The notes under the pieces are model-generated. The model worked only from the letters and a program-made list of their open reading frames with translations. It was not told the DNA's origin and searched no databases. Below, in pieces: positions 3,615 through 5,542 of a stretch of 35,311 nucleotides of DNA (its first letter is position 1; every line of letters starts with the position of its first letter). This DNA is from a virus. The DNA lies in IMG/VR virus record IMGVR_UViG_3300036846_000988, positions 1 to 35,311 of that record; one strand, 5' to 3'. Position numbers and translations under genes: made by a program.

Positions 3615-4031
3615 ATGATGCTATTACTAAGAGAAGTTGATTTTTCTCAAACGAGAAAGAATGCACGATATGTTTTGAAGAACTACCGTCGGTTGGAGCG
3701 GATTGCAGGTCGTTCAAAGATCGATGTCCGCTCACCGATTATTACTGATATGCCTAGAACACCTAGTAATGGAAACAAGTCCGAGGATGCTTTTATTCAA
3801 AGATTGGATGCAGAAACAGAAAGAGACGCAATAATCGTTGCGCTTATGGCTTTGAAGCTAACAAGCAGACAGATACTTCATTATAGCTTCTGCTTACAAG
3901 ATCAGTATTCTAATCTAAGGATCGCAGATGAGATGGGCTATTCAGTTCGGCAAATTGAGCGAATGAAATCAGATGCATTGGTTGAATTTGCTGAAAGTTA
4001 TCGTCGTGGCAAGCTTGTCGCTTATCGCTGA
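3615..4031 (+). CDS. arpU: ArpU-family late transcription regulator
   Basis: A 138-residue protein of the ArpU/RinA-like type, named from the Enterococcus hirae autolysin regulator. Members are small sigma-like DNA-binding proteins placed last in the early arm, just before the terminase region. The N-terminal half carries a conserved basic helix (KNARYVLKNYRRLERIAG). The C-terminal third (about residues 98-125, SNLRIADEMGYSVRQIER) reads as a sigma region 4-like helix-turn-helix. The gene is followed within 6 bases by three phased TGGCGGT repeats, its likely target. It would switch on the late operon. AAAGGGG at 3598-3604 serves as ribosome site. Confidence 0.85.
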   Translation: MMLLLREVDFSQTRKNARYVLKNYRRLERIAGRSKIDVRSPIITDMPRTPSNGNKSEDAFIQRLDAETERDAIIVALMALKLTSRQILHYSFCLQDQYSNLRIADEMGYSVRQIERMKSDALVEFAESYRRGKLVAYR

Positions 4032-4035
4032 AAAA

Positions 4036-4064
4036 TGGCGGTTTTTTGGCGGTATAATGGCGGT
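4036..4064 (+). promoter_or_regulatory. three 11-bp-phased TGGCGGT repeats; likely ArpU-dependent late promoter
   Basis: TGGCGGT occurs at 4036, 4047 and 4058, exactly one helical turn apart, immediately after arpU. A TATTAT hexamer follows at 4093-4098 with no recognisable -35 box, the layout of an activator-dependent promoter. This predicts a start near 4105. Binding by ArpU is inference. Confidence 0.6.
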
Positions 4065-4104
4065 TTAGTACCAATAATCCATAGTAAGATAGTATTATCA
4101 ATTA

Positions 4105-4261
4105 TTGTAAATAACAGGGCGCACTCCTTTAAGATACGTTGGCAGACCTCCTTTCTGAAAATTATTCCCAGCGTCCTGTTTTTAATTAAGACGGCGACAA
4201 AAAAATCTATTATGAATGGAGTTGAACACACTCCTTATCTTCATTCGCTAGCCGTCTTTTT
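4105..4261 (+). ncRNA. structured leader RNA with two long-range stems, each followed by a U-run
   Basis: Stem A pairs AACAGGGCGC (4113-4122) with GCGTCCTGTT (4171-4180; one G-U pair) and runs into TTTTT at 4179-4183. Stem B pairs AAGACGGC (4188-4195) with GCCGTCTT (4251-4258) and runs into TTTTT at 4257-4261. Inside B, GAATG/CATTC (4214-4218/4242-4246) and GGAGT/ACTCC (4218-4222/4230-4234) can nest. The loop of A holds ACCTCCTTTCT, like the 3' tail of 16S rRNA. Both stems end as terminators do but have unusually long structured loops. It could be an attenuator, a put-like antitermination element or a stable small RNA. No known RNA family is recognised. Confidence 0.45.
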
Positions 4262-4266
4262 ATTAT

Positions 4267-4340
4267 GTCACTGTGGCAGACCGGTATTGCCTTTCTCTAA
4301 CCGAGATACGACTAGTGAGGTTCAAATCCTCACCAGTGAC
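4267..4340 (+). tRNA. tRNA-like element, possibly tRNA-Val(AAC) or a degenerate tRNA
   Basis: A 7-bp acceptor stem (GTCACTG/CAGTGAC), a T arm with the standard GGTTCAAATCC box, and a D arm matching the A-box pattern (TGGCAGACCGG) fold as a cloverleaf of 74 bases. The anticodon arm (TTTCT, loop CTAACCG, AGATA) has a T-T mismatch and would place AAC at 34-36. Oddities: the T stem is 6 bp instead of 5, position 37 is C rather than a purine, and no CCA is encoded (TTT follows). It may be a real but unusual phage tRNA, a decayed tRNA, or a tRNA mimic used in processing. Confidence 0.5.
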
Positions 4341-4392
4341 TTTGGGAGTTGTCAATTAGATTACTCACATGATCTTTGGTGCTTCCTGCTTG

Positions 4393-4415
4393 ATCAGTCC
4401 TTCGGGACTGATTTT
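4393..4415 (+). terminator. UUCG-loop terminator-like hairpin
   Basis: ATCAGTCC (4393-4400) pairs perfectly with GGACTGAT (4405-4412) around a TTCG tetraloop, followed by only a short T-run. It is a very stable hairpin but a modest intrinsic terminator, placed between the tRNA-like element and the next promoter. Confidence 0.55.
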
Positions 4416-4438
4416 AGCCATGATTTTCCTCCTTTTTT

Positions 4439-4447
4439 TGATATAAT
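4439..4447 (+). promoter_or_regulatory. extended -10 promoter of the 4473 gene
   Basis: TGATATAAT is a perfect extended -10 (TGn plus TATAAT). No convincing -35 box lies upstream. Predicted transcription starts near 4454, just before the GAGGTGGG ribosome site, giving a very short leader. Confidence 0.5.
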
Positions 4448-4472
4448 ATAATCAAGAAATGAGGTGGGAAAG

Positions 4473-5027
4473 TTGGAAAGTGATTTGCAAAAAGCAATTC
4501 GAAAATTATCTGATTTTTTTGAGGATCCTAAAAAAAGGATTATTCTTATCAAAGGGTATGATGATGAAGCAAAACTATTAGCATCGTTAACTGCGACCAA
4601 TAGTGCATTCAGAAAATGCATTTTTTTGGTTAATGTTATGGGTGAAGCTGCAAGATTTGTTAATAATGCAGTTAAAAAGAAAGTTTTACCGAGTTCAATT
4701 AACTCCAAAAAAGAATATCCGGTGGGAAAAATGGAAATGTCTTTTTATAGTTATGCAACGAGTTCATCAGTTGCTTATTCAGGAAATGAAGATACTTGTA
4801 CAATAGTTTGTCCTATAGAAACTGTTTTGGATAATAATAATAGATATGAAAAATTTGTTGCTGAATTAAAAAGAATTAAATCAAGAAAAATTATTTTAAT
4901 AACAACAAACGAGCATTCTATTGAAAACTGGGATATTGAGAAGTATGTAGATGAAACATATTTTTATTCTGTAGAAAATGATAATCCGGAACTTATGAAT
5001 AACATGAAAAAGTATGGGATTTTATGA
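4473..5027 (+). CDS. accessory gene of unknown function between arpU and terS (184 aa)
   Basis: Not recognised. The predicted soluble protein alternates strands and helices (IILIKGYDDEAK near residues 23-34, TCTIVCPIE in the middle, KIILITTNE further on), an alpha/beta pattern resembling a Rossmann-type fold, but no Walker A or other active-site motif is visible. The gene is more AT-rich than its neighbours (about 27% G+C at 4501-4560). It has its own extended -10 promoter and a terminator overlapping its stop codon, the hallmark of a moron that can be expressed outside the late programme. I chose TTG at 4473 because GAGGTGGG (4461-4468) is well spaced from it; GTG at 4464 lies inside that site. 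Confidence 0.65.
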   Translation: MESDLQKAIRKLSDFFEDPKKRIILIKGYDDEAKLLASLTATNSAFRKCIFLVNVMGEAARFVNNAVKKKVLPSSINSKKEYPVGKMEMSFYSYATSSSVAYSGNEDTCTIVCPIETVLDNNNRYEKFVAELKRIKSRKIILITTNEHSIENWDIEKYVDETYFYSVENDNPELMNNMKKYGIL

Positions 5028-5048
5028 CCTCAACTGAGGTCTTTTTTT
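5026..5048 (+). terminator. intrinsic terminator overlapping the stop codon of the 4473 gene
   Basis: GACCTC (5026-5031) pairs with GAGGTC (5036-5041) around AACT, followed by seven T residues (5042-5048). The TGA stop (5025-5027) is part of the left arm. This lies just upstream of terS, so late transcripts must pass it. Confidence 0.75.
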
Positions 5049-5089
5049 ACATAGAATTAGAAAACAAAACAGATTGCGAGGTGAGAGTA

Positions 5090-5542
5090 GTGAAATTAAC
5101 TGAAAAACAACGTAGGTTTGCGGATGAGTACATTATCAGCGGTAATGCTACTCAAGCCGCCATTTCTGCTGGGTATAGTAAACGAACTGCTAAGTCTGTG
5201 GGTAGTGAGAACCTGACAAAACCTGACATTAGGCAATATATAGACGAAAGACTCGAGCAGCTGCAGTCTGAAAAGATTGCTAGTCAAGAAGAGGTGTTGG
5301 AGTATCTTAGTAAAGTTATGCGAGGAGAAGCGACTGATCAGACAGTCGTGTTCCAAGGTGCTGATTATGGCTCTTCAATTGAAGATATACAGGTAGCTAA
5401 TAAAGATCGTCTAAGAGCAGCTGAACTCCTTGGCAAGAGGTATAGCCTATGGACTGATAAAGTGGAGCTAGATGGCAATATGGATCTGAAAGTGGTGGTT
5501 GATTATGGCGATGGCGAAAACGAAGCGCCAAATGATAGTTAA
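5090..5542 (+). CDS. terS: terminase small subunit
   Basis: A 150-residue protein that recognises phage DNA and recruits the large subunit for packaging. The N-terminal region KLTEKQRRFADEYI and NATQAAISAGYSKRTAK (about residues 18-34) is the classic Terminase_2 helix-turn-helix. The rest is helical, with a C-terminal strand (DLKVVVDYG) likely contacting TerL. I chose GTG at 5090, behind GAGGTGAG, because the upstream extension of the frame would start within the preceding terminator. It overlaps the terL start region. Confidence 0.9.
   Translation: MKLTEKQRRFADEYIISGNATQAAISAGYSKRTAKSVGSENLTKPDIRQYIDERLEQLQSEKIASQEEVLEYLSKVMRGEATDQTVVFQGADYGSSIEDIQVANKDRLRAAELLGKRYSLWTDKVELDGNMDLKVVVDYGDGENEAPNDS

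Follow-up and report, generated by a model that had tools for sequence, protein, structure and literature searches.

A conserved structured RNA leader of phage late operons in Enterococcaceae, a candidate cis-acting antiterminator

We analyzed a stretch of 35,311 nucleotides of DNA from an Enterococcus phage record (IMG/VR record IMGVR_UViG_3300036846_000988, positions 1 to 35,311; hereafter, the window) and found that positions 4105-4261 are part of a genuine structured RNA, previously undescribed. This interval is the first half of a conserved leader that is larger than an earlier note on this DNA had described; the whole element consists of the late promoter, two stem units (A and B), an exchangeable slot for a tRNA or tRNA-like element (4267-4341), a module C, and a terminator. 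We establish here the structure of the leader, the covariation of unit B, its promoter-proximal position in sense orientation, its spread, and the layout of the terminators that accompany it. The best-supported mechanism is that the leader acts in cis as an RNA antiterminator of the late operon, a tentative proposal to which we give a little less than an even chance. The element bears on how these phages get past the terminators that separate the structural genes from the one late promoter that is evident, and a conserved RNA heading the late transcript in about one-third of the sampled Enterococcaceae genomes would direct attention to RNA-based lytic control in a major gut and hospital genus.

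The leader lies immediately 3′ of an ArpU-type late regulator gene, whose protein is encoded in identical form by an E. casseliflavus genome. Three direct repeats, presumed binding sites of the late regulator, follow this gene, and repeats of the GGCGG type are found again after the arpU genes of relatives. A –10 box stands next, with equivalent boxes preceding the leader in relatives, and stem 1 begins 15 nt past it, about 8 nt past the predicted start. The earlier note had placed a late start at about 4105 and a folded RNA at the opening of the late transcript; the –10 box is consistent with the former, and the latter is borne out, insofar as sequence can speak to either. The features of the region are as follows.

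3615-4031, + strand: ArpU-type late regulator gene (PHROG 248, transcriptional activator, E = 1.9e-41)
4036-4064, + strand: three direct repeats TGGCGGT (4036-4042, 4047-4053, and 4058-4064; spacing 11 bp), read in the sequence
4093-4098, + strand: –10 box TATTAT of the late promoter, from sequence; start predicted near 4105
4113-4180, + strand: leader unit A, a long-range stem of 10 bp whose 48-nt loop contains GCACUCCUUUA and GACCUCCUUUCU; fold z = –3.1
4188-4258, + strand: leader unit B, an 8-bp closing stem with an A-rich 5′ strand and a pyrimidine-rich 3′ strand; 62.3 bits with covariance model R1
4218-4234, + strand: inner hairpin of unit B, GGAGU-UGAACAC-ACUCC, from sequence
4267-4341, + strand: tRNA-Val(AAC) call by ARAGORN, or tRNA-like element; exchangeable slot after unit B
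4343-4388, + strand: module C, GGGAGUUGUC..GAUUACUCACAUGAUC..CUUCC, conserved 3′ of the slot in the close clade
4392-4415, + strand: terminator-like hairpin after module C, with a U4 tail here and U6-U7 in most relatives
4439-4447, + strand: extended –10 of the first gene (TGATATAAT), a promoter predicted from sequence
4464-5027, + strand: variable first gene, moron-like, 187 aa (PHROG 36795, E = 1.3e-6)
5026-5048, + strand: intrinsic terminator GACCTCAACTGAGGTC-TTTTTTT ahead of terS, from sequence
5090-5542, + strand: terminase small subunit gene (terS), the first essential late gene (PHROG 51, E = 3.6e-51, for a query that begins at 5081); we read the GTG at 5090 as its start

Both stems lie exactly where the earlier note had placed them. 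Stem 1 joins AACAGGGCGC (4113-4122) to GCGUCCUGUU (4171-4180) through 10 bp, one of them G-U, and stem 2 joins AAGACGGC (4188-4195) to GCCGUCUU (4251-4258) through 8 bp; the loops measure 48 and 55 nt, respectively, and 7 nt separate the stems. RNAfold recovers both stems from 4105-4261 at –37.3 kcal/mol (z = –3.1), a value equaled by one of 200 dinucleotide shuffles. A fixed 170-nt window taken after the –10 box, which is a less biased check than counting stem pairs, gives z = –2.6 here and averages –3.0 across some 30 related loci, with values of +1.8 and 0.0 at two loci without the element in their leader. The effect is not uniform across loci, since only –0.8 was obtained for L208, in which unit B lies further downstream, and for L031, which has a long E. 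faecalis leader. Separate z-scores computed on hand-bounded segments are illustrative only.

Each stem had been described as a terminator-like hairpin with a structured loop, running into a five-U tract. The tracts are literally there, but two U of each fall within the stem, and neither is conserved: most close relatives have AUUUAA after stem 1, five have AAGACAGG after stem 2, and the sequence 3′ of stem 2 is diverse over 37 loci. Because the U-tracts are not kept, and with loops of 48-55 nt, we rejected units A and B as intrinsic terminators. A coding role was also considered, as open reading frames at 4035-4451 (+) and 4022-4231 (–) overlap the element; single-base indels in an A-run between near-identical relatives make coding unlikely.

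In the closest clade, formed by phages of E. casseliflavus and E. gallinarum, units A and B are 84-99% conserved over 29 distinct sequences, and covariation within this clade is uninformative because the stems hardly vary. We therefore rely on comparisons across clades. RNAalifold run on 15 cross-clade sequences predicts the unit-B stem alone, and in four of the eight pairs of this stem both bases have changed in a compensatory way; on 32 sequences it predicts the inner six pairs. In the smaller set, 94.2% of unit-B cells are paired, against 84.5% after shuffling (0/500 shuffles as high) and 27-62% in slid registers; in the larger set the figures are 94.5%, 85.1% (0/500), and 24-58%, with 30 double-change cells against 12.5 after shuffling. 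These shuffle statistics ignore the relatedness of the sequences, and for about 13 of the 32 the sole route of discovery was a model based on the unit-B stem, so that their pairing leans toward that model. G-U pairs are tolerated within the stems. Alignment A5, which mixes both strands of palindromic hits, was left out of the counts.

Compensatory changes in related phages had been set beforehand as a check, and for unit B they appear in both the RNAalifold predictions and the pair counts. The expectation that both stems would covary holds in part: unit A keeps its pairing, as judged from hand-curated sequences only. Its stem and loop are retained in 21 close relatives, and other clades have different yet complementary stems in its place, such as ACAGGGCGC/GCGCCCUGU, ACCGAUUGAU/AUCAAUCGGU, and UCGAAAGUCAAA/UUUGACUUUCGA. 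These examples were chosen by hand because they pair and are illustrative only; they are suggestive of a unit A that maintains pairing through changes in sequence.

The earlier note missed the parts of the leader that follow unit B, namely the tRNA-like gene at 4267-4341, module C, and the hairpin at 4392-4415. Although ARAGORN calls the first of these a tRNA, its 6-bp T arm and an A34 anticodon that is unusual for valine lead us to judge that it is more likely a tRNA-like element than a decoding tRNA. The slot directly after unit B is occupied within the closest clade by tRNA-Pro, -Lys, or -Val, sometimes with a second tRNA-Ile, or by a tRNA-like element with a variable middle; more distant Enterococcus phage leaders carry tRNA-Asn, -Trp, -Cys, -Ile, others, or nothing. 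A strict acceptor plus T-arm pattern is present at 25 of 69 loci, true tRNAs included, and at none in antisense or in shuffled sequences; some tRNA-like elements, the window's among them, miss this pattern solely through a 6-bp T arm. We also observed that tRNA-like elements recur in the late leaders of several phage groups (window 4267-4341, L026, L031, L037, L202, L227, and L228), with the acceptor and T arm kept; the anticodon region is either absent or has given way to a hypervariable insert, in many cases GTCACTGTGGCGGAA...GGTGCAAATCCTTGCCAGTGAC. Why late leaders should carry a tRNA-shaped RNA in an exchangeable slot is a question separate from that of mechanism.

The order of the modules varies. 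Module C, as a similar CUACUCAC unit, sits between units A and B at the loci of E. pallens and E. songbeiensis, and in E. songbeiensis unit B leads directly into terS. The position after the leader (window 4464-5027; L002-L044) is a moron slot, in which the gene varies and is in many cases served by an extended –10 promoter and a terminator of its own.

In nearly all relatives this leader is followed by intrinsic terminators. The window has the terminator-like hairpins before and inside the late genes that the earlier note reported, with those at 5026, 13424, and 22011 marking gene boundaries. Among the 26 close-clade leaders with enough sequence, 21 have a hairpin of type CAGUCCUUCGGGGCUGUUUUUU 3′ of module C and the remaining five have AAGCGGUCC..GGGCCGUUUUUUU in that place, so that a terminator precedes the first gene in 26/26. 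A sense terminator lies within 1 kb of the arpU stop at 32 of 43 ArpU-type loci (antisense, 17); in a scan that starts 44 nt in and misses a few terminators, one lies within 1.1 kb after unit B at 28 of 37 diverse unit-B loci (antisense, 17/37). Counts of sense and antisense terminators across the late region are 8/1 in the window, 8/0 in EG-TP1, 9/5 in phiFL1A, and 7/6 in phiEf11. Since terminators follow the leader and mark late gene boundaries, transcription from the late promoter must pass intrinsic terminators. The earlier remark that antitermination would make sense here is thus supported in logic by this layout. As a side observation, four Lactobacillales ArpU-type loci (L229, L230, L231, and L242) have in common a short leader that bears a CCUCCU loop, and in all four a strong terminator of almost the same sequence, AGAGCUAUCC..GGGUGGCUCUUUUUUACAU, precedes the first late gene, which is terS in L231.

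Covariance model R1, built on unit B, found no second copy in the window, including at the early operon, where HK022 has one. It matches 35 of 103 Enterococcaceae genomes (E ≤ 0.01), a lower bound because R1 misses E. faecalis-type stems; in a separate sample of 295 Lactobacillales genomes it matches eight (E ≤ 0.001), all of them also in the Enterococcaceae list. At nearly all loci inspected, the leader stands just 3′ of a late regulator and promoter in sense orientation, and 13 loci that lie away from the best ArpU genes are mostly phage late leaders too. The regulators upstream belong to PHROG 248, PHROG 36 (RinA-like and sigma-region-4-like), and PHROG 1558, and at four loci (L270, L272, L280, and L284) the regulator is degraded, cut off, or not recognized. 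Because the same leader follows different regulator families, we consider it modular, moving between regulators; because the next gene differs, being terS or unrelated morons, we consider its effect not gene-specific. Leaders range from about 170 to 800 nt, with those of E. faecalis reaching the upper figure.

The element was not recognized as a known RNA family in the earlier note, and database searches agree. Rfam gave no match to the window element at gathering score, only chance eukaryotic matches with E up to 5, and among the leaders of relatives tRNA alone was matched. The interval bears no annotated feature in phage records NC_013646, NC_013696, and PQ571292. In our literature search the leader was undescribed; small RNAs of E. 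faecium have been reported from prophage phiEnfa003 (PMC5593968) and could not be placed against it. Two further observations concern the public records. Enterococcal arpU-leader sequence occurs at 79-88% identity in Listeria phage records OR846730 and OR848098 and in Acinetobacter phage D2SVT (PQ554527), whose other-host labels probably reflect host mislabeling or contamination. In the pair MT836717.1/PQ571292.1, one record opens on the first stem, at the equivalent of 4111, and another terminates within the segment just past the slot; either breaks in the assembly or a true end of the genome could account for this.

We also examined the leaders for short motifs. NusB boxA-like motifs score 9.33 over the set, against 9.04 ± 0.12 in shuffled and 9.13 in antisense sequence, a borderline result (1/60 shuffles), and the best match in the window leader lies at the null mean; boxA was rejected as a common motif, being borderline over the set and strong in L183, L182, and L193 alone. 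In these three, the boxA-like strings TCTTCTTTGACAA, TCTTCTTTCAAAA, and TCTTCTTTAACAG lie directly 5′ of the unit-B stem, an arrangement that resembles a nut-like boxA-hairpin.

How might such a leader act? A cis-acting RNA antiterminator fits best because the leader is promoter-proximal and in sense orientation, its structure is conserved, its regulator is exchangeable, the next gene varies, and terminators lie downstream. This host group also offers precedents, in canT of Tn916 (PMC11658703) and conAn of pLS20 (PMC8955417). Transcription would start at 4105, and the nascent leader would bind, in cis, the RNA polymerase that made it; the polymerase so modified would be insensitive to the terminators that separate the late promoter from the genes for head, tail, and lysis. 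Transcripts of any other origin, whether from read-through in the lysogen or from the moron's own promoter, would stop at these terminators, and the late genes would consequently be silent until the late regulator fires the promoter. Several findings count against this proposal. The terminators of phiFL1A (9/5) and phiEf11 (7/6) show little or no sense bias, and an antisense rate of 17/37 after unit B is not low. The slot and module C are not accounted for by antitermination alone, leader lengths vary widely, and the boxA result is borderline over the set and at the null mean in the window. In L204, L220, and L237, moreover, no more than tens of bases separate a terminator from the predicted start, which leaves no room for the element; late operons of the ArpU type are thus able to get past a terminator in its absence, or else they put up with partial termination.

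These three loci favor a Q-like regulator in their phages and lower our confidence in an RNA antiterminator. The late regulator itself (ArpU, RinA, or a relative) would then be an antiterminator loaded at the promoter, with the leader a platform for pausing and folding, made ahead of the terminator and not itself the antiterminator, as in the late leader of lambda. That leader is the 6S RNA, which lies between pR′ and tR′ and is ended at tR′, and Q protein performs late antitermination. The order of promoter, leader, terminator, and late genes is the same in lambda and here, and the ArpU relatives that lack units A and B retain their promoter-proximal terminator. A Q-like regulator leaves unexplained, however, why the structure of this RNA, unlike lambda's leader, is itself conserved, with covariation, behind different regulator families, and existing descriptions make these regulators activators that carry sigma-region-4-like domains, with no report of antitermination by them in the literature that we read; we regard this explanation as unlikely. 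Rather unlikely, too, is that the leader is a trans-acting or structural noncoding RNA, cut from the late transcript at the slot by tRNA maturation enzymes, whether as a smaller RNA in the manner of GOLLD and ROOL or as a sponge or antisense RNA acting through Shine-Dalgarno-complementary CCUCCUUU loops. Many phages do have a tRNA or tRNA-like element directly 3′ of unit B, GOLLD and ROOL are phage RNAs found near tRNAs (PMC12286853), E. faecalis leaders attain about 800 nt, and CUCCUU or CCUCCU occurs in 44% of leaders against 5% of shuffled sequences. Part of this last conservation is explained by the pairing of CUCC with GGAG of the inner hairpin, however, Rfam matches nothing but tRNA, neither GOLLD nor ROOL, and at L187, L190, L144, and L036 unit B is followed by neither tRNA nor terminator and runs into a ribosome-binding site, so release of an RNA is not universal.

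No more than about 8 nt separate unit A from the predicted start, and 5′-terminal stems protect mRNA in the Bacillota; the leader might accordingly be a 5′ stabilizer that shields a 20-kb late mRNA from 5′-end-dependent decay by RNase J, with processing at the slot setting mRNA ends. We find this improbable, given that one simple hairpin would suffice and that a stabilizer does not predict why unit B and its hairpin, module C, and the A-rich strand are conserved. That the inverted repeats act as DNA, for instance as a packaging (pac) site next to terS or as a protein-binding site, is very improbable: the repeats are upstream of terS and two public records start or end near them, but G-U pairs are tolerated in the stems, the orientation is fixed relative to the promoter, and variable genes intervene between the element and terS.

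Returning to the cis-acting RNA antiterminator, it is possible, and we hold this more loosely than the mechanism itself, that the leader represents a lineage-wide new class of such RNAs in Enterococcaceae late operons, built from one to several repeatable stem units, used with different regulators, and equipped with an exchangeable slot for a tRNA or tRNA-like element, at which tRNA processing may release the leader or the mRNA. If so, it would be, to our knowledge, the first case of RNA-only antitermination for the late genes of Gram-positive phages.

The earlier note likened the paired stems to the put sites of HK022, which span about 70 nt and consist of two compact stem-loops about one nucleotide apart (PMC9378689). 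Like the leader, put is a structured RNA of two stems that follows closely on a phage promoter (putL), and its operon contains terminators; the leader does occupy a promoter-proximal site in a terminator-bearing operon. The put RNA binds the zinc-binding domain of the RNA polymerase β′ subunit and acts in cis to suppress termination. Membership in the put family is contradicted by geometry, with loops of 48 and 55 nt and stems 7 nt apart; furthermore, put serves early operons of phages of E. coli and occurs twice per phage, whereas the leader heads a late operon in Enterococcaceae, has one copy in the window, and carries a tRNA-like slot and module C in addition. The canT element of Tn916, a cis-acting, processive RNA antiterminator that acts on heterologous terminators (PMC11658703), is likewise a structured RNA of an Enterococcus-group mobile element that precedes an operon with several intrinsic terminators. 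R1 found no match in the canT region, between orf8 and xis, of L245-L249, and canT has a Gram-positive boxA (TGTTCTTTGAAAAC) in L245 to which the window leader has no comparable match. The canT region itself shows a textbook Gram-positive boxA (TGTTCTTTGAAAACTGAAT) at about 1150-1175 of L245, and the related element of L249 has TGTTCTTTGACAAGTGAAT at about 1209-1230.

In pLS20, a Gram-positive mobile element, the conAn antitermination system operates where a long operon begins, and internal genes of that operon have their own promoter and terminator (PMC8955417); the moron of the window, set between terminators with its own extended –10 and terminator, reproduces this layout. The leader is set apart from conAn, by description, in that conAn requires the protein ConAn1 together with the RNA conAn2, and the leader has no evident linked protein. 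EAR of the Bacillales, as cited in PMC11658703, is a cis-acting RNA antiterminator in Gram-positive bacteria; it belongs to chromosomal exopolysaccharide operons, and the leader matches no Rfam family. GOLLD and ROOL, structured RNAs of phages and prophages, Lactobacillales included (PMC12286853), are much larger and have other structures. We class the leader as a new kind of structured RNA, distinct from put by geometry, from canT by model search, and from GOLLD and ROOL by Rfam. By analogy, it may work like put, EAR, conAn2, or canT and is possibly a variant of the RNA antiterminator kind; if it is an antiterminator, it would add a phage late-gene example to the short list that these four make up.
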